64,000 nucleotides of DNA, from NCBI GenBank assembly GCA_030068145.1, contig JAPJBO010000012.1:1-64000 (forward strand). The letters are read 5' to 3'. This document shows, in pieces, positions 1,138 to 48,190 of the stretch. Each line of letters opens with the position of its first letter. Position 1 is the first letter of the stretch. This stretch comes from Diplonema papillatum. Lineage: Eukaryota; Euglenozoa; Diplonemea; Diplonemida; Diplonemidae. The translations under genes and the position numbers were made by a program. The notes below the pieces were generated by a model. That model worked only from the letters and a program-made list of their open reading frames with translations. It was not told where the DNA came from and did no database searches.

Positions 1138-1199
1138 AACTTGGGCAATGGTATGTGTTTGTTTCTGCTTCCTGACTCCTGCTGACGCTCCCCCCTCAT

Positions 1200-2330
1200 C
1201 TTCTGATTCTCTATCTGCTGCCCCTGCTGCTGCCAGCTGTTACCCTGGCTGCCCCTCCTAGCTGATGCTCATCTTGCTTATTCCCCTGTTGATGCAGCTG
1301 CTGCTGCTCCTCTATCTGCTGCCCCTCTAGCTGCTGCTCCTCCAGCTGCACTCATCTTGCTTCGTCCCTCTTTGCGGCTCCTCTAGCTGCTGCTCCTCTA
1401 GCTGCTCCTGTCTTGCCTCCAGTGGTTGCTCATCTTGCTTCCTTCTTGCTGCTGCTCCTCGAGCTGCTGCTCATCTTCCTTCTTCCCTCTTGCTGTAGCT
1501 CTTCCTCCTGCTTCTGCTCCTCTATCTGCTGCCCCTCTAGCTGTTCTATCCTCTAGCTGCTGCTCATCTTGCTTCTTTCTCTCTTGCTGCAGCTCTTCCT
1601 CCTGCTTCTGCTCCTCTTTCTGTTGCCCCTCTAGCTGTTTTATCCTAGCTGCTGCTCCTCTAGCTGCTACTCATCTTGCTTCTTCCCTCTTTGCTGCTCC
1701 TCGAGCTGCTCCTCATCTTGCTGCTGCTCATCTTCCTTCTTCCCTCTTGCTGTAGCTCTTCCTCCTGCTTCTGCTCCTCTATCTGCTGCCCCTCTAGCTG
1801 TTCTATCCTCTAGCTGCTGCTCATCTTACTTCTTTCTCTCTTTTTGCTGCAGCTCTTCCTCCTGCTTCTGCTCCTCTATCTGCTGCCCCTCTAGCTGTTC
1901 TATCCTCTAGCTGCTGCTCATCTTGCTTCTTTCCTCTTGCTGCTGCTCCTCGAGCTGCTGCTCATCTTGTTCCTGCTCATCTTCCTTCTTCCCCTCTTGC
2001 TGTAGCTTTTCCTCTGCTTCTGCTCCTCCATCTGCTGCTCCTCTAGCTGCTCCTTTCTTGCCTCTAGCTGCTGCTCATCTTGCTTCTTTCCTCTTGCTGC
2101 TGCTCCTCGAGCTGCTGCTCATCTTGCTCCGGCTCGTCTTCCTTCTCCCCCTCTTGCTGTAGCTCTTCCTCCTGCTTCTGCTCCTCTACTTCTAGCAGTT
2201 CTATCATCTAGCTGCTGCTCCTCTTGCTTCTTCCTCTTGCTGCTCCTCCTCTATCTGCTGCCCCTCTAGCTGTTTTATCTTCTAGCTGCTGCTCCTCCTG
2301 TCTGCTGCTCATCACGCTACGGCTCGATAG
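1200..2330. repeat. Pyrimidine-rich imperfect tandem array
   Basis: The + strand is almost purely C/T with scattered G (CTCCTCGAGCTGCTGCTCAT, CTTGCTGTAGCTCTTCCTCC) and repeats in blocks of roughly 150-200 bases. The reverse strand would read Gln/Glu/Leu-rich peptide, but stops interrupt every frame. It could be a degenerate Glu/Gln-rich coding repeat or plain low-complexity DNA. Confidence 0.8.
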
Positions 2331-2339
2331 CAAGACCTC

Positions 2340-3830
2340 AAATTCCCAAAGAGTCGCGTCTGAATGATAAAGAGCGGCCCAAGAACGACTGCAAATTGGC
2401 CGATAATCAAACAGCGGCGCAAGAACGACTGCAACTGTGGGCGGCAATGACAGATGACAGATGAACGGAGCTAGACCACAAATGTCCAAAGAGCCATGCC
2501 CGAATGACAGCAAACGGCCAAAGTGCGGTACGAGAACGACTGCAAATGTCCATAACACCTGTCTTTTTTTCCTTCAAGGACAGCAGATGACCGCAGAACG
2601 GTGCCAGAATGACAGCCAATGTCCAAGGAGCGGCACCAGAACGACTGCAGATTGCCAGAGACTGCCCCAAGAATGACAGCCAATGACCAATGAACAGCGT
2701 TAGAATTACACAAATGCCCATGAGCCACGCCTGAATGACAGTGAACGGGCAAAGAGCGGCGCTAGAACGACTGCAATGGCCAAACTACAGAACGAGAACG
2801 ACTGCAACTGGCCGGAGATCGCCCAGGAAGGACAGCCAATGACCAGCAAGCGGCACCAGAATGACAGCGAACGGCCATAGAGCGGTACCAGAACGACTGT
2901 GCCAGAATGCCAGCGAATGCGCCAGAACGACTGCAGATTGCCAGAGATCGCCCAGCCAATGACCAGCAAGCGGCACTAGAATGACTGCCTATGACCAACA
3001 AACGGCGCTAAAATGACCACAAATGCCCATGAGCCACACCTGAATGACGGACCAAGAGCGGCGCTAAAACGACTGCAATGGCCAAACTGCGGAACGAGAA
3101 CGACTGCAACTGGCCGGAGATCGCCCAGGAAGGACAGCCAATGACCAACGAGCGGTACCAGAATGACAGTGAACGGCCATAGAGCGGTACCAGAACGACT
3201 GTGCCAGAATGCCAGCAAATGGCCAAGGAGCGGCGCCAGAACGACTCTCAATGACCAAAGAATGCCGCTAGAACGACTACAAATGCCCATAGAGCCTGAA
3301 TGACGGCAAATGTCCAAAGAACGGCGCTTGAACGACTGCAAATTGCCCAAGAGCAGCGCCAGCATGACTGAAAATGGCCAAACTGCGGCGCGAGAACGCT
3401 GCAACAGGCTGGAGACCGCCCAGGAATGACAGCCAATGACCAAAGAGCGGCACCAGAATGACAGTGAACAGCCACAGAGTGGTACGAGAACGACTGCAAA
3501 TGTCTAAATCACCTTGCTTGAGGGACGGCAAATGACCAGCAAGCGGCACCAGAATGACTGCCGACGACCAAAGAACGGAGCTAGAATGACCACAAATGCC
3601 CAAAGAGCCGCGCCTGAATGACAGCGAACCGCCAAAGCGGTACTAGAGCGACTGCAAATGTCCAAAGCACCTTTGTTTGAAGGACGGCAAATGACTGCAG
3701 AACGGTGCCAGATTGACAGCCAATGGCCAAGGATTGGCACCAGAACGACTGCCAATCGCCAGAGATCGTCCCAAGAATGACAGCCAATGAATGACCAGCA
3801 AGCGGCACCAGAAGTAACGAACAGCGTGAC
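2340..3830. repeat. 32-bp minisatellite, about 45 degenerate copies
   Basis: Units follow the pattern GAACGACTGCAAATGNCCAA then AGAGCGGCNCCA, 32 bases long; adjacent units show GAATGACAG or GAACGACTG at 32-base intervals and longer gaps are multiples of 32. Because 32 is not a multiple of three, all three reverse frames carry overlapping Trp/Phe/His/Ser-rich ORFs of 60-155 codons, which I treat as artefacts. Confidence 0.9.
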
Positions 3831-28853: not shown

Positions 28854-30934
28854 TCAATTTTTCCCCTTTTGCAATTGAGGTTTTGCCCACTCCACAAATT
28901 CGTCGATAAGGACTGGCCACCCTTCATCTTCGCTGTAGTTGGACAAATCAGGCTCTGTGCTCAACATGAAGTCCAGGAGAGACTTCCAAACATCCTTGCT
29001 TATAGCTTTTTTGTGAACTGATGCAATGAATTCACACCACAGATCTATGGGAAAGTCCTGTGATGTTTGTTTATTTTGAGGTACCGTTGATCCTTTCCCA
29101 CTTGACTTTACGGTGTCAGTTTCAGGTTAGGAATTCTGAACAACGACCGAAACACGCTGCCTTGAAGGGCAACCGCAAGATTGTAAGTACTAAGTTTATA
29201 GGGGTTTTCTCCTGCCGTCAGCGCCCGCAAACGCAACGAGCTTGGGCCTGGGCCTTCCGAGTGCAGGGTTTCGAAGGTATCTTTCATCGGTGTGTACGAT
29301 AAAGAAGGTCTCAAGAAGTTGTGGGCCAATGGAGTTCCCTCAGGTTGAGATCCCATATAAGCCGGTGGGAGAGTGCTTTTGCGACTGCTTCCGAATGAAG
29401 GCTTTGTGAAGTTTCAAAACAGGAGAACACACCTTCGCACGCGGCTTTAAGAGCTGTTGCCAGCTTTCGATAGCTGGTTCGTACTGCATCACACGCATGT
29501 TCTCTTCACGAGTCCAGTCAAAAGCGAACCAGTAGAAGTACTTGAAATGCCGCTTCTCTGCAAGATCTTTTTTCCAAGTTGGAATGGCGTTCTTGAGATC
29601 TTTAACATTGTCTATACCGAGACATCTCATGGCCGTTTTGAATTCTTCTCCTCCAATTTTGAAAGGCTCAGAGGCCTGAACACGGCAGGCCAGGAGGAGG
29701 AGTGATTCATCATCCAAGCTAATCCCGAGGTCCTGTGTGGTGACGAAGGACTGTTTGCTGCTGCGAGGCTGCCTTGGCGCACAAACCAAAGGCTGGACTA
29801 TGAATGGCGCCCAGTTCAGCGGTCAGACAAGGAGATGATAGGAAAAGAATGACAGCAGTCTTTTGTACGCCGATCGGAAAGCGGAAGAAGCCGGGAGGTC
29901 CTGGAACAAAACAATTCATACCGTGCATAAAGAGATGAGGCCCTCGCCCTGAATGCAGTTCTCGTCGCAATCGCTGACTTTGTGATGCTTCTGGAAGAAG
30001 GCTTCAATCTTTTTCATCTGAAGCTTCGGATTTGCGTATGGATCAATCTCATAGGGATTAGCTGAGCTGACTTCTTCGCGCTTTATGGGTACAATGTGCC
30101 CCGCATTGAGATCATGCATTCGCCGACGCGAGAAGTCGACTCGGTACGCGGAGCCCCCAACCTGTGTTAACACGGCATAGTTGCGTCTGTGAAAACTGCT
30201 ATCTGGAGTGAATATATTCGCTTGACCCTCCCGCTCCTCGTGCATAAAGAGCTTTCGTACCGTATCAGACTACTACTATCTTATACACGGGTTTCCGTAG
30301 CGAGCACGTGGGACCTTCACTAAAGACAGTTGCAGTACACTAGGCGGACGCCTCTCTTCAGCTCTTGCCAAAACCACGTACTTATCATACGTACAAGTAC
30401 ATGTATTTGTCATATGGGCAAAAAGCTGCATTGTGTTCGAGTCAGTCCACCTATACTTGCGCCAAACGGACATCATACTAAGTGTAGATCCGTCCCCGTC
30501 CACACCCTGTTTACCATCTAGCCGCCCATCCGCCCACCCGTCCACCCGACTACCCTCCACCCACCGACCTGCCCACCGAACTACCAACATGGCTCACCCA
30601 CCCATTCACCTTCCTGCCCACCTTTCCCACCAGGAAGTGTCGGGGAGATCCGGGGACTCACCAGGAGCCCGGACCTCAAGACTCGGAAATTCCGGGAATG
30701 TCAGCTTTCTCTTCTCTTCGATGGCGGCAAACTATGACTCAGCAGGTGCAATAAACGCAAGCAAATGGGGGGTTTCTCTTGCTGGGCATACATGGGTAAA
30801 CTGAAATGTTGGCATACCACTACTTCACAAGATGGAATACGCTGTTGAAATGCTTTTTCGAGTTTTTGGCTCACTGCAAGATCGGCTTCTACCCAGTTGG
30901 TCCATTCCTGGAAATACCATCTTCCCCTTGACAT
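28854..30934 (-). CDS. WWE-DCN1 (PONY domain) fusion, neddylation co-E3-like protein
   Basis: Four exons join in phase 0: 30934-30818, 30161-29922, 29732-29433 and 29057-28854 (introns 656, 189 and 375 bases, all GT-AG), giving 286 residues. Residues 1-65 match a WWE domain: RGRWYFQEWTNW, LEKAF, then across the first intron EVV/VGGSAYRVDF and NAGHIVPIKRE. The rest is a DCN1-type PONY domain: KKIEAFFQKH, LISLCT/DLGISLDDES, FKYFYWFAFDW, ESWQQLLKPRAK/DFPIDLWCEF, ISKDVWKSLLDF and EGWPVLIDEFVEWAKP. DCN1 proteins help transfer NEDD8 onto cullins. Of the three cullin-binding residues known as Asp-Ala-Asp, both Asp are present (SKD, IDEF) and Ala is Gly. The start at 30934 sits directly at the WWE domain; the frame is open to 31012, where CCGCAG could be a splice site, so an extra 5' exon is possible. 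The usual N-terminal UBA domain is absent. Confidence 0.85.
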
Positions 30935-34000: not shown

Positions 34001-34420
34001 GAAATCATTTGCGCTTGACTGCACGAATTACAGGAGCTACGAAACGAACTATTCCAAATCAGAGAGCCGCAAAATAGAACAAACAATGCAAAGAAAAATG
34101 CCTAAATTTCGTAGCATTCGCACGCTTTCTTGAGAGCATGAGTCCAGTCTCTGTTTGTTTGTTTCGAAGTGTCTCAGGAAGTGCACGGAATACGAAGTGT
34201 CTCTTACATAAGCGCCAGCTTGAACGGAAATGCTCGACGATACTGCCCGACAAAGAACAGAAGGGATCCTAACTACCGAACCACGTGTTGAACGGACGTG
34301 AGGTCATGCGGGTCTACCCCTACACGACAAATCACACAAACACAACAGGTCAAAGTCCGGAGTGAGAAAGCAACACACGGTGGTGTAAACGAAGTACAAA
34401 CAGTCTGCTCCTGATCACTA
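31030..34420. other. No firm gene; scattered exon-like ORFs
   Basis: 31529-31789 (-) and 31596-32041 (+) overlap on opposite strands with equally plausible composition. 32482-32814 (-) reads 110 residues without a known domain. On the + strand 32886-33068 ends with PNKFLLPAATTRQIRAAW, which resembles the last strand and helix of a PH domain, but no N-terminal half was found. 33200-34050 has no ORF of note. The 3' exon of the PH gene at 34444-34730 should lie here on the reverse strand but could not be placed. Confidence 0.3.
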
Positions 34421-34443
34421 ACGTTTGTCACCAGCTTGCATAC

Positions 34444-34730
34444 CTCATTTGCTCAAAGGTCAGCGCGGCAAGTTCGTACCGAGACTTTGCCTTCTTTTGA
34501 ACGTTGAGAATGGGGCCTTCGAGCGAGAAAGCAAGACTGTCGGCAGAGCAAATGACTCGTGCACCTCGAAGGTCAAGTGTTCCACATGGCTTCCCTCCCT
34601 CAGCCTCGCTGTAGGTCATCACATGACCCTTGAGTTCGAACCAACGTTTTTCAGCTCCTCGACCCATGATGTTCTTGCCGCCGTTCTTCAGCAGGTACCC
34701 TTTCTGCACAATTGCATCGTCCTGCTTCAT
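34444..34730 (-). CDS. PH-domain protein, first exon
   Basis: The exon runs from the ATG at 34730 to a donor AG/GTATGC at 34444. It encodes a PH-like fold: VQKGYLLKNG, then RGAEKRWFELKGHVMTYSEA (the typical R-W-F-x-L-x-G core of strands 2-3), CGTLDLRGARV, and RYELAALTFEQMR just before the C-terminal helix. The helix with its invariant Trp must come from a downstream exon I could not locate. PH domains bind phosphoinositides or proteins at membranes; the basic strand 1-2 loop pattern needed for lipid binding cannot be judged confidently. It is one of at least three PH units in 3 kb on the same strand, suggesting local duplication. Confidence 0.75.
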
Positions 34731-35256
34731 CTGTTGTGCGTCGTTTTAAGTTTGCTACACAACGGTATTAGCTATTCTTATTGCGCTTAAGTTGAGGTTG
34801 AATGAAGTTGAGGTTGGAGTTGAAGTTGGTAAAGGGACACACCGTTGCTGCATTTTCGATCGCGCCTTTCCACTTTTGAAAATTAACTTCGTCGTCAGCT
34901 GTTAGAACATAGTCTTTTCCCTGCGGTATTGTCTTTGTTCATCCAAAGCTTACACACTGCGCATGGTTAACAGCTCAATCAAGCAAGCGTGTTCTGGTTT
35001 CCATCTTGTTCACATTTAGCAGGTTGGGGTGACACAAACCAACCTGGTAGATACATGCTTTCGCTCACATGATTGTAATCGTTCACAGTGGCAAGTTGGT
35101 TGGGCCGATGGCTGCGGTGACGTTCACCAATGAGCCTGAAGGCTTTGTCTGTGACAGCAAATAGGCTTCCACTTGCTTTTCGTGCTCAAAAAGTCAATCA
35201 TTACTTGCACCCGTACACTCGGAAGCAGCAACTGCTGCTGGTACCCTGTCTCGTAC

Positions 35257-35530
35257 CTTCGCCAGTTGCCCCTCGCAATTTGGGGAAGACAAATACTGAA
35301 AAAGCTTGGTCTGTATCCGGATGGTTGCAATAATACGATGCGTTTTCCTGAAAGCATACCGTTTTCGAGGCGTTGAGTGGTTGGCCGCCTTCAATCTTGA
35401 ACGTGAGAGCGACGCCCGGGTTGGTGAGGAAGCGTGAGCCACGGAGGTCCAGGACACCAAGTACTTCACCCTTTTCGTCATTCTGCGTGGTGTGATGCTT
35501 AAAGCACGGTCCCGCACGGCAGCATGGGTG
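35257..35530 (-). CDS. PH-domain gene fragment, middle exons
   Basis: An exon ending at 35360 (ACG/GTATGC) encodes CFKHHTTQNDEKGEVLGVLD, LRGSRFLTN and LTFKIEGGQPLNASKT, which aligns with strands 3-6 of the PH unit at 34.4-34.7 kb (GGKPCGTLDLRGARV). A 39-base exon 35295-35257 (YLSSPNCEGQLAK) follows in phase 0 and corresponds to RYELAALTFEQMR in that paralogue; both end at a donor just before the expected C-terminal helix. The 5' boundary near 35515-35530 and the N-terminal exon with the W-L-x-K strand are not resolved, and the last exon (35.1-35.2 kb) is uncertain. It could be a pseudogene. Confidence 0.5.
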
Positions 35531-35699
35531 GGACTAATACAAAACTCGAATTAATCTCGAGCATTGCAATAGCAGTCGCAAAAGACAACTGAAACGGGTG
35601 GAAAATGTTTCTTGGGTTTGAAGAGCGCGTGGTGCTTGCACCACTGAGGCCAGGTTATTTAACCGCGGATTTAGTGAAGGATTGTTCAGGAAACGGTCG

Positions 35700-35812
35700 C
35701 GAGCGAAACCCAACCAGGTAACGACCATTTCACTGTCTTCTTTGTTTTGTGATGCGAACATCACGAGGTGCTGTCCGAAGACACCGCCCACGTGAGCACT
35801 GTTAAGCATTGA
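35700..35812 (-). pseudogene. PH C-terminal helix fragment
   Basis: The reverse frame reads HVGGVFGQHLVMFASQNKED and then SEMVVTWLGFARDRF, the pattern of the last PH strand plus the helix with its conserved Trp. The matching N-terminal half should lie between 35.8 and 36.28 kb, but that interval holds a dispersed repeat (35930-36180). Either a large intron contains the repeat or the unit was disrupted by it. Confidence 0.4.
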
Positions 35813-35929
35813 GTTCTTTTAAGTACATGAACCACATGGATTAGCATGCACTTAAGCAGCGGTTGCCACGTAGAGGTGGTTTAGGCCTTGCCGCATTCTA
35901 CTGCTATAGTGCGTTGCTCAGGGAGTTTC

Positions 35930-36180
35930 CATCTCTCCGGAGAGTTTCCGGTTTCTCCCGTACTCTACAACTCCCCACATAAGCAGACGTGGACTCAGAA
36001 TTCACCTCCTCATCTTCCCCGCCTTGTGCCCATTCTCGAACTCACTCAACTTTTTTCCTCAAGAGAGCCGCGTCCGCCAACGACCAACTTGTCCCGCCCA
36101 CCCACCTTCAGCCCCATTTTCCCACTAAAATCGGGCTGAGTTTCGGGGAAGTGTCGGGGAAATTCGGGAACTTACCCAGG
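35930..36180. repeat. Dispersed repeat inserted in the PH cluster
   Basis: GAGTTTCCGGTTTCTCCCGT and CTCTACAACTCCCCACATAA here match 16140-16185 inside the 7-bp-TSD transposon. The right part (GAAGTGTCGGGGAAATTCGG) resembles 30640-30660 in the first intron of the WWE-DCN1 gene (GAAGTGTCGGGGAGATCCGG). Termini and duplication were not identified. Confidence 0.6.
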
Positions 36181-36283
36181 TGGAAAAACTAAGAAACCGC
36201 AACGGCATGGCCAAGATCCGCAAGGCTGGGATCTGTCCGGTACACTTGACCGCCCACAAAACCTTTTTGACATGATACTGCGA

Positions 36284-36963
36284 CTACATGATCTCAAGTG
36301 CGTAAACCTCATCGAAGTCATTCTGCTCCTCTTTTTTATCTTCGCCAGACTTGCCCGCTGACCGTGCTGATGAGTACTTCCTAGGCAAAAGCCCCATGTC
36401 CCCGTTTCTTCCGCGTTGCTCGCTTGTTGTGGGCTGTATTGAACACCCATCGACGGCAGTGACGGTGACTGGACAACGAAGCCACGAGACTACGAATTGG
36501 GGAAGGTAGTTGAATCCCTGTTTCCTTTTTTACTCGAACGCTGAACTGGGTCATTTCCGGTCTGCAGAGAGCTCCAGGCTCCACATGGTGTCCTGAAAGT
36601 CTTCTCACACATTGTCATCGGAGAAGGCGTGGAACACCGATTCCCAATCACTCCTCGACTCGAGAGCGGGAGAAAAATACACCATCAAAACGACTCCAGG
36701 GTCGAAGACTTTCAGCATGTGGACGCGGTGCCGACGCCGCTATACCTCAGGAAGTTTCCCTCTTTTCTCTTTTTCTCCCATGTCCCAAAAATATCTACAC
36801 GTCGGAACATCTGCTGCTTTGAAAAAAGAAGTATACATACCGTGCTCTTCCATGTCAAGCAAGGACCTTTTAAAGAGCACCACCTTCTGTGATCTTGAGC
36901 ACCTCTCTTCAGGAGCCAGCCTTCCATGTTCGGATATTGTGGTTGCGGGGTCGTGGACGCCAT
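36284..36963 (-). CDS. PH-domain protein, three exons
   Basis: Exons 36963-36841, 36739-36609 and 36422-36284 join with matching phases (0, then 2) and give 130 residues. Exon 1 has EGWLLKRG and RRWCSLKGPCLTW (PH strands 1-3). Exon 2 supplies MLKVFDPGVVLMVYFSPALE and SDWESVFHAFSDDN, the last strands and C-terminal helix with its Trp. Exon 3 adds a charged tail (SGEDKKEEQNDFDE, ending YALEIM). Donors are GTATGT and GTGAGA; acceptors are TATAG and AACAAG. The frame is open to an ATG at 37086 (41 more residues), but the 36963 start places the PH domain at the N-terminus as in the neighbouring unit. A one-domain PH protein of this size is likely an adaptor or membrane-recruited small protein; the ligand is unknown. 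Confidence 0.75.
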
Positions 36964-37099
36964 GTTAGAAGGTGGTGGCTGTGAGGCACTCTTCAGCCCG
37001 GCAGGTTCTCGGATACGAGTGATTGATGTTCTTTCGCGTTTTAGCAACTTTTTCTTTTCTTCCTTGCACAGGTTATTCTTGCTCACGGTCTCCAGTCAA

Positions 37100-45422: not shown

Positions 45423-46942
45423 CAGTGTGGAGGCCAGCTACGGTAGCTGGTAGCTAGCTACTGGTAGCTCAGCTACCGGTAGCTCTGGTAGCTCGTGGTA
45501 GCTCAAAAAAAAAATTTTTTTTTTATGTCGAATTCGCTCGCAGGGGACGACCGAAAATTGCGGAAAACAGCAAAAAAACGCACAGAAAATGGTGCTTTTT
45601 CGAAAAAGATGGACGGGCGCATGGCTCCAAAGTGGAAAAACTATCGGTTCTCATTTGACAATGTCTGGGCTGTCCAATCGCGCTCCAGCTGCCCTGCGGA
45701 AGTGAAAGGCCAACGAACCACAAAACAATTTTTCGTTTTCGGGTCTATTTTTCACGGTTCTCTTCATCGGAGCAAGAGACGAGCAAAAAAACGGCGAAAA
45801 AGGTCTGCAACGTGGACCAGCGGGAGAATGACACCAACCAGGTAATTGATTCGCGTCCCCATTGCAACCCTGGTGGTTTCCACGCCCACTGCTCTGCATG
45901 TTGTAAAGACCCACGAACCACGCACATACTTTCTGATCCCCAGGTCCATTTTTCATGGATCTCTTCATCGGAGCTGATCACGAGCAAAAACTCGCCGAAA
46001 AAGGTCTGCTACGTGGACCAGCGAAGAAATGTCACCAGCCAGGGGATCGACACCCGTCCTTGCCAATGCGCACCTGGTGGTTTCCACGCCCGGCGTTCTG
46101 CATCTTGTAAAGACCCACGATCCATGCACATAACTTTCGATCCCCGGGATTATTTTTCACAAATCTCTCCATCGGAGCTGATCACGCGCAAAATTTTGTC
46201 GAAAAAGGTCTGCTACATGGGCCAGCGAAGAAATACCACCACCCGGGGGGATCGATACCTGTCCTTCCCATCGAATCCCAATGCAAACCTGGTGGGTTCC
46301 AGGCGGTGCCCTCCGCCTTGTAAGGACTCACGAACCATGACATACTTAATGGTCTCCGGGTCCATGTTTCACGGATCTCGTCATCGAAGCTGATCGCGAG
46401 CTAAATTTCATCGAAAAAGGTCTGCTACGTGGACCAGCAAAAAAATGTCATCAGCCAGGGGATCGATACCCGTCCTTTCCAATGCAAGCCTGATGGTTGC
46501 CACTCCCGGTTCCCTGCAACTTGTAAGGCCCCGCAAACCACGCACATACTCTTAGCACCCCGAGTCAAGTTTTCACGGATCTCTTCACCGGAGCTGATCG
46601 CGAGCAAAAATTCGTCAAAAAAGGTCTGCTACGACAGCCTTGTGTGGATCGGCAAAAAAATCCCAGCCAGTCTGAGCCACCAATGGCTGGTGGCTGCCAC
46701 TGACTGCCCGTGGCTGTCACCTACACTGACCAGGGGGGGTCGAAAAAAGCCGGAAAAGGGCATTTCGTCACGTTTCTTTGCATTTTTTCGCATTTTCTGG
46801 CCCTAAATACCGGTACATTTCCAGTTTCGGACACAATCCATTTTTTCCACTTTTTGAGCTACCACGAGCTACCGGGAGCTACCCGGTAGCTCTGGTAGCT
46901 CAGCTACCGGTAGCTGGTAGCCAGCCCCCAGCCCCCACACTG
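45423..46942. mobile_element. Second CAGTGTGG element, 7-bp TSD TCTAGAC
   Basis: It begins CAGTGTGGAGGCCAGCTACG and ends, read inward from the right, CAGTGTGGGGGCTGGGGGCT then GGCTACCAGC. TCTAGAC is present at 45416-45422 and 46943-46949. It is colinear with the 17577-19216 copy and over 90 percent similar by eye across long stretches, but lacks one whole 205-bp unit (units at 45812, 46013, 46217, 46429). Length is 1,520 bp, with no transposase. Confidence 0.9.
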
Positions 46943-47063
46943 TCTAGACTGCCACCGCAACCCCTCGGACACATCAAGCTCACCACACACATCTTTGAGC
47001 TCATCGTCCAGGAATTCCACCAACAACGGGCACAAAAGTGCCAACAGCGGACCGGCCAGTAGT

Positions 47064-47495
47064 ATAGCCGGTACATACGGTGTGAAGCGGTAGGTAGAGC
47101 CGGTTCATACGGTGTGAAGCGGTAGGTAGAGCCGGTACATACGGTGTGAAGCGGTAGGTAGAGCCGGTTCATACGGTGTGAAGCGGTAGGTAGAGCCGGT
47201 TCATACGGTGTGAAGCGGTAGGTAGAGCCGGTACATACGGTGTGAAGCGGTAGGTAGAGCCGGTACATACGGTGTGAAGCGGTAGGTAGAGCCGGTACAT
47301 ACGGTGTGAAGCGGTAGGTAGAGCCGGTACATACGGTGTGAAGCGGTAGGTAGAGCCGGTACATACGGTGTGAAGCGGTAGGTAGAGCCGGTACATACGG
47401 TGTGAAGCGGTAGGTAGAGCCGGTACATACGGTGTGAAGCGGTGTGTAGCCGGCATACGGTGTGAAGCGGTGTGTAGCCGGTACATACGGTGTGA
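47064..47495. repeat. 32-bp minisatellite, about 13 near-identical copies
   Basis: The unit is CCGGTACATACGGTGTGAAG plus CGGTAGGTAGAG, 32 bases; some units have GGTTCA in place of GGTACA and the last two are shortened (GTGTGTAG). The near identity indicates recent expansion. Three reverse-frame ORFs of 130-236 codons across it (TASHRMYRLYLPLHTV-type peptides) are artefacts of the period. Confidence 0.95.
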
Positions 47496-47639
47496 CATCC
47501 AGTAGCAGAAAGTCTTGTGGCAAAAGTTTTCTTTTTTCTGAAAAGTTTTTTTATTGCGCGCGCGCGCGTAAATTTCTGTGGGCCGACGGACATGGGCCAA
47601 AAAAAAAAAACCGCCTACCCTAAAAAGTTTCTTGGTGGC

Positions 47640-48190
47640 TTGGTGTGATCCATATGCCCGGTGCAAACCCGGCACAAACCCGGCACAAACCCGGAAAAAC
47701 TCAAGGGGGGTCCGATTTTTTATTTTGCACCACCCCTTCAGGTTGTGGCAGGTGACCGCTGCATTCAAGCTAAACCGACTGCACCAGGGTCCTGTTGAGT
47801 CAAAATCAGCACCAATAAATAAGTATGGCGGCACTGAAAGTGTAGGTCCACTGCAGAAGCATTGCAGCGCTGAATGCACACCTCTGACAGACAGGAGCTA
47901 CTATTTTCCAATGCCTCCAGAGTGCAAGCCCGGTTGTGCTTGACGCAACGGACTACAACCGACCACCAGCCACCAATTGTCTCAAACTCTCCCGACACTA
48001 CGGGAACCGAGGAACCTGGCGCAGTCGGCAAGCCGAGTAAACCTCCGCCCTCGCACTTTTTCAAATGAAGCATCATTTCCAAAGTCATGTCCTCGTATGT
48101 GGTTTTGAGTGAGCTTTCTCCTTCTGATACTGTGTCATGCTGGCTCTTGCCGGATGCTAACTAGAGGGGTGACATTCAAGCGAGCTTCGT
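47640..48190. other. No gene recognised
   Basis: 47670-47700 has three tandem GGCACAAACCC units. Reverse ORF 47765-48088 and + ORF 47578-47943 overlap and neither shows a domain. Confidence 0.3.

Follow-up and report, generated by a model that had tools for sequence, protein, structure and literature searches.

A predicted Diplonema papillatum gene joins a divergent WWE domain to a DCN1-type cullin-binding domain

Results

Structure of the WWE-DCN1 gene

The window, by which we mean the whole stretch of 64,000 nucleotides of Diplonema papillatum DNA that was analyzed (contig JAPJBO010000012.1), carries on its minus strand a predicted gene whose spliced translation joins a WWE domain to a DCN1-type region. 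This gene, referred to here as WWE-DCN1, runs from position 30934 to 28854. Its four phase-0 exons of 117, 240, 300 and 204 bases, the last of which contains the stop codon, yield a protein of 286 residues, and the intervening introns of 656, 189 and 375 bases are all bounded by GT and AG (Table 1). A preliminary description of the locus had given the same coordinates, the same four exons in phase 0, the same 656-base first intron and the same length of product, all of which were reproduced. In the own-genome profile search, the match to the Cullin_binding family (PF03556) at 29379-29597 extends beyond the end of exon 3 into intron 3.

Two further features of the window were recorded. The strand that carries WWE-DCN1 also has, upstream of it, a gene of several exons with several PH-like stretches, of which one is confirmed as a PH domain by Pfam and the others were recognized by eye. 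A tandem repeat region, also on the minus strand, reads TASHRMYRLYLPLHTVCTGSTYRF.

Table 1. Positions of the features described in the text
Feature	Sequence	Positions	Strand	Content
WWE-DCN1 exon 1	window	30818..30934	minus	start codon and residues 1-39; WWE domain from residue 6, first half
WWE-DCN1 intron 1	window	30162..30817	minus	GTATGC...ACACAG; interrupts the WWE domain
WWE-DCN1 exon 2	window	29922..30161	minus	rest of the WWE domain (residues 40-67, to 30078), linker and start of the DCN1 region (residues 85-119); positive codon usage
WWE-DCN1 intron 2	window	29733..29921	minus	GT-AG
WWE-DCN1 exon 3	window	29433..29732	minus	middle of the DCN1/PONY region (residues 120-219)
WWE-DCN1 intron 3	window	29058..29432	minus	GT-AG
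WWE-DCN1 exon 4	window	28854..29057	minus	last part of the PONY domain, including the residues aligned to the cullin-binding patch (Asp241, Gly265, Asp271), then stop; PF03556 match at 28887-29051
PH gene	window	34102..37095	minus	several PH-like stretches
PH domain confirmed by Pfam	window	34434..34745
Proposed last exon of PH gene	window	34102..34150	minus	PH end and stop, preceded by an acceptor of matching phase
Tandem repeat region	window	46900..47897	minus
C450 DCN1 locus	L002	1018..1932		PONY end, apparently in several tandem copies
WWE-WWE-PNKP-like frame	L007 (G000:C560)	1153..2163	plus	two WWE domains, then start of PF08645
WWE-WWE-PARP frame	L010 (G000:C57)	1435..2706	plus	424-codon open frame
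WWE-WD40 frame	L021 (G000:C235)	1171..3021	plus	WWE stretch before WD40 repeats
WWE half with UBA-like match	L023 (G000:C284)	1444..2925	minus	one open frame

Domain assignment

The preliminary description had proposed a search of the 286-residue model for the WWE and Cullin_binding families, and both were found over their Pfam cut-offs in the one spliced frame. The WWE domain (PF02825) covers residues 6-67 at 33.7 bits (E 4.9e-8; cut-off 21.1 bits) and Cullin_binding covers residues 165-276 at 101.9 bits (E 4e-29; cut-off 27.9 bits). No family match to a UBA domain was obtained in the model in a Pfam search at E values up to 10, in which filters drop most weak matches. In a comparison with solved structures, the best match to the DCN1 region was DCNL1 (E 4e-37) and the next DCNL2 (E 2.4e-33); a DCUN1 protein of Galdieria (E 4.3e-29), DCNL3, DCNL4 and yeast Dcn1 matched as well. 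The WWE domain searched alone in the same way gave a weak match of residues 5-55 to the WWE domain of RNF146 (E 0.006).

Evidence for one gene

The strongest argument that the two domains belong to one gene, and not to two neighbors, is provided by exon 2, which encodes the rest of the WWE domain together with the beginning of the DCN1 region and so bridges the domain boundary. Exon 1 alone scores 18.5 bits against the WWE profile, under the cut-off, and exon 2 alone has no WWE match in Pfam. When the two are spliced, residues 1-69 reach 37.3 bits (E 3.7e-9); the first residues of the protein do score as WWE, and the domain is split by intron 1 and becomes whole only once spliced, as had been proposed. 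The specificity of this join was gauged with decoys in which exon 1 was spliced to other AG acceptors, 37 of which, at 29.5-30.8 kb, open a frame of at least 30 codons. Pfam scoring covered 30 of these 37, the seven that overlap others being omitted. All 30 match WWE, owing to exon 1, with a best E value of 3.4e-4; one scores 21.1 bits, exactly the cut-off, so that a decoy may reach the cut-off yet stays short of the true join. A second profile was built solely from WWE domains found elsewhere in the genome, 17 in number; against it the true join reaches 29.9 bits, ahead of 140 of 140 decoys, among them all 37 near ones. The best decoy in this comparison, at 25.8 bits, repeats part of exon 1, and the next scores 23.2 bits. 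Human RNF146 reaches 52.5 bits with the same profile, and the WWE domain of the DCN1 fusion is thus a divergent member of its family. With the true join above every decoy tried, the presence of the WWE-DCN1 fusion in one predicted gene, favored in the preliminary description, is confirmed at the level of sequence.

Codon usage bears on where this gene begins. Parts of exons 2-4 score from 0.07 to 0.20, and exon 1 lies at background (-0.15 versus a background mean of -0.13), which counts against the gene model. The latter value would fit a shorter protein in which a working DCN1 begins within exon 2, at the Met at 30119 or at a same-frame Met near 30245, and exon 1 is used seldom or not at all; the frame of exon 2 is open upstream to 30269 and contains in-frame ATGs, and a decayed WWE domain would suit the loss of pocket residues described below. 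However, codon usage at the start of exon 2 resembles that of coding sequence, its first 28 codons having a value of 0.17 over the 95% background value of 0.11, and these codons lift the WWE match far over that of exon 1 alone, so that we judge a start within exon 2 to be quite improbable.

An extension of the gene in the opposite direction, with more upstream exons such as those encoding the PH domains contributing to the same protein, appears very improbable. The PH exons do lie on the same strand, the end of that gene being about 3.2 kb from the WWE exon, but an exon that ends in a stop at 34102 can supply the end of the last PH domain. The exon proposed is one of four places that fit the search pattern, the other three having early stops. 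A codon-usage scan of the minus strand from 34443 to the WWE exon found no stretch over threshold; exons that are short or score poorly can escape such a scan, as exon 1 and the proposed last PH exon did, and it is accordingly weak evidence. The upstream PH domains were considered as part of the WWE-DCN1 gene and are unlikely to belong to it, given the proposed stop and the lack of a stretch over the scan threshold between.

Related domains in the genome

The assembly searched comprises 271 Mb in 2910 contigs, and the profile searches work exon by exon. Six matches to PF03556 fall at four loci, namely the WWE-DCN1 gene and loci designated C51, C321 and C450. The WWE-DCN1 gene has the top score of the four, 101.9 bits versus 88.6 for C51, 78.2 for C450 and 65.1 for C321, where the latter three were scored as unspliced open frames, some of them perhaps incomplete. 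The C51 locus is an open frame of 244 codons without another Pfam domain, and that of C321 has 434 codons with a basic stretch ahead of the domain. The C450 locus seems to have several tandem copies of the PONY end, marked by AWPVLFDEF-like stretches.

The genome search for WWE gave at least 19 matches on 16 contigs (L007-L025), none of which is listed among the contigs with a PF03556 match. The split WWE domain of the DCN1 fusion is itself absent from this list, so that split copies are missed, and a split WWE or UBA domain beside the other DCN1 loci could be missed as well. Neddylatable cullins are represented by nine matches to the cullin Nedd8 domain (PF10557), seven of them over the cut-off; a bacterial control genome has one weak match, under it. 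PARP domains account for 26 matches, with exons counted apart and one match containing internal stops, and PARG for two. Given PARP and PARG, an ADP-ribose signal should exist in the organism. The preliminary description had also referred to related algal proteomes. An algal origin finds no support in the genome search, which gave no match to the chlorophyll-binding family PF00504 in the assembly, a result limited by the exon-by-exon method and by missing organelle contigs.

Cullin and E2 surfaces of the PONY domain

The cullin-binding patch of DCNL1 is described as Asp211, Ala235 and Asp241 (PMC6393609). In an alignment in which 72 of 194 aligned residues are identical to the WWE-DCN1 protein, these positions correspond to Asp241, Gly265 and Asp271, so that two of the three are the same. 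The two paralogues aligned keep the Ala, and the Gly in WWE-DCN1 counts against the explanation we favor below. For the hydrophobic pocket that receives the acetylated N-terminus of the E2, 22 positions were taken from the inhibitor contacts named in PMC10526667; five are identical, with a core that is hydrophobic and a rim that is changed, and this partial conservation likewise counts against it. Judged from these alignments, the PONY domain is likely to bind cullin, and binding of the E2 is plausible.

The ligand pocket of the WWE domain

Structures of WWE domains from human E3 enzymes are described in which three conserved residues engage the ligand, a Gln that bonds to the adenine and a Tyr and an Arg that hold the proximal phosphate, with Asn1669, Thr1672 and Asn1674 named among the pocket residues of HUWE1 (PMC11269756). 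In the WWE domain of the DCN1 fusion the Tyr is kept (Tyr45), and Phe8 supplies an aromatic residue at the place of RNF146 Tyr107. The Gln column holds Met54 in a MAFFT alignment or Asp56 in the alignment to the own-genome profile; since no Gln occurs between residues 32 and 86 of the aligned protein, the adenine-binding Gln is missing whatever the placement of gaps. No Arg occurs between residues 54 and 66, and the Arg column is occupied by Val63. The places of the three HUWE1 residues, with the spacing counted from the Tyr, fall on Asp, Ala and His.

In the profile alignment, Gln and Arg are both present in RNF146, in DTX1 (twice) and in the second Deltex domain. The comparison within the genome covered 17 of the 19 listed WWE matches, with L021 and L023 omitted because they end before the pocket columns. 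Gln is found in all 17, Arg in 16 (the exception being L020, with Leu) and Tyr in 14. Among the domains compared, the loss of both Gln and Arg is, in these alignments, special to the DCN1 fusion. The WWE domain of the fusion probably does not read ADP-ribose in the known way, and the absence of the two residues speaks against the function first proposed for this protein, the linking of an ADP-ribose signal to cullin neddylation.

For that function to hold, the WWE domain would have to read ADP-ribose or poly-ADP-ribose with an altered set of pocket residues and so direct cullin neddylation to ADP-ribosylated sites. We regard this as improbable, even though the fold signature, Tyr45 and Phe8 are kept and the ligand should be available, the genome containing a WWE-WWE-PARP protein in addition to the PARP and PARG matches counted above. 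The substitutions at the Gln and Arg places, the residues at the three HUWE1 places and the retention of Gln and Arg by the sister domains all argue in the other direction. The WWE domain of the fusion could also be decaying and without a role.

Discussion

Yeast Dcn1 and human DCNL1 and DCNL2 have an N-terminal UBA domain. WWE-DCN1 resembles yeast Dcn1 and human DCNL1 (DCUN1D1), its closest solved relative, in its PONY domain, and shares with DCNL1 both aspartates of the cullin patch. It differs in having a WWE domain in place of the N-terminal UBA, in the change of Ala235 of the patch to Gly and in the altered rim of the E2 pocket. The closest solved WWE domain is that of RNF146 (Iduna), with 28% identity over the domain; unlike RNF146, WWE-DCN1 lacks the pocket Gln and Arg and is without a RING, none being found by Pfam in the model.

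Taken together, these comparisons suggest that WWE-DCN1 is probably a cullin-neddylation co-E3 of the DCN1 family with a protein-docking WWE domain where the UBA stands in its relatives. By homology to DCNL1, the PONY domain would hold the cullin through the patch of Asp241, Gly265 and Asp271, and its hydrophobic pocket would hold the NEDD8 E2. The WWE domain keeps the signature of the fold and, because the pocket Gln and Arg are absent, most likely docks a protein partner rather than poly-ADP-ribose in the known pocket. Through this docking the WWE domain would determine the site of neddylation, or the cullin complex on which it is stimulated. The UBA is reported to be unnecessary for the neddylation activity of Dcn1, and the N-terminal regions of this family are considered to determine location and targets, a view for which the same account notes little direct evidence (PMC4886823). 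A precedent for the occurrence of either domain within one family is provided by VPS13 proteins, where VPS13A and VPS13C are described as carrying a WWE and VPS13D a UBA as accessory domains (PMC7613979), although these are lipid-transfer proteins with a core unrelated to that of WWE-DCN1. The dispensability of the UBA, the role of N-termini in location and the VPS13 precedent favor a co-E3 with a docking WWE domain.

A related but unlikely proposal keeps the co-E3 role in neddylation and gives the WWE domain a ligand new to it, which might be ubiquitin, NEDD8, a modified nucleotide or a protein of the PARP pathway. Such a co-E3 would route cullin activation to a signal that known DCN1 proteins do not read.

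The preliminary description named no described protein with this architecture, in agreement with our search of open-access papers, in which none of those listed and judged by title and the opening of the abstract presented it. Neither the fusion nor its DCN1 part had a relative in viral contigs or prokaryote genomes, sets with few eukaryotes, from which little can be concluded. The predicted fusion offers two opportunities. A WWE domain in the place of the UBA, on the best-scoring DCN1 domain of the genome, is a test case for the role of the N-terminus in this family. A WWE domain without the ADP-ribose residues, while the others in the genome keep them, is a natural mutant for asking what the fold can bind.

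The genome survey also revealed several other WWE architectures. In L007 two WWE domains precede the beginning of a polynucleotide kinase 3' phosphatase domain (36 bits versus a PF08645 cut-off of 22), which suggests a WWE-WWE-PNKP-like protein. Known PNKP has an FHA domain where L007 has its WWE domains. The open frame of L010 combines two WWE domains with a PARP domain that scores over the cut-off. Open frames in L011, L015, L016 and L017 (G000:C132, C138, C1121 and C662) have a PARP-like stretch followed by a WWE domain, and three of them contain cysteine-rich repeats, recognized by eye. PF00644 was matched at E < 0.001 in each of L011, L015 and L017, the frames scanned, and the PARP domain is over the cut-off in L017, as in L010, and under it in L011 and L015. 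In L021 a WWE stretch stands before WD40 repeats, its match stopping ahead of the pocket Gln column. Finally, L023 combines half of a WWE domain with a UBA-like match just under the cut-off.
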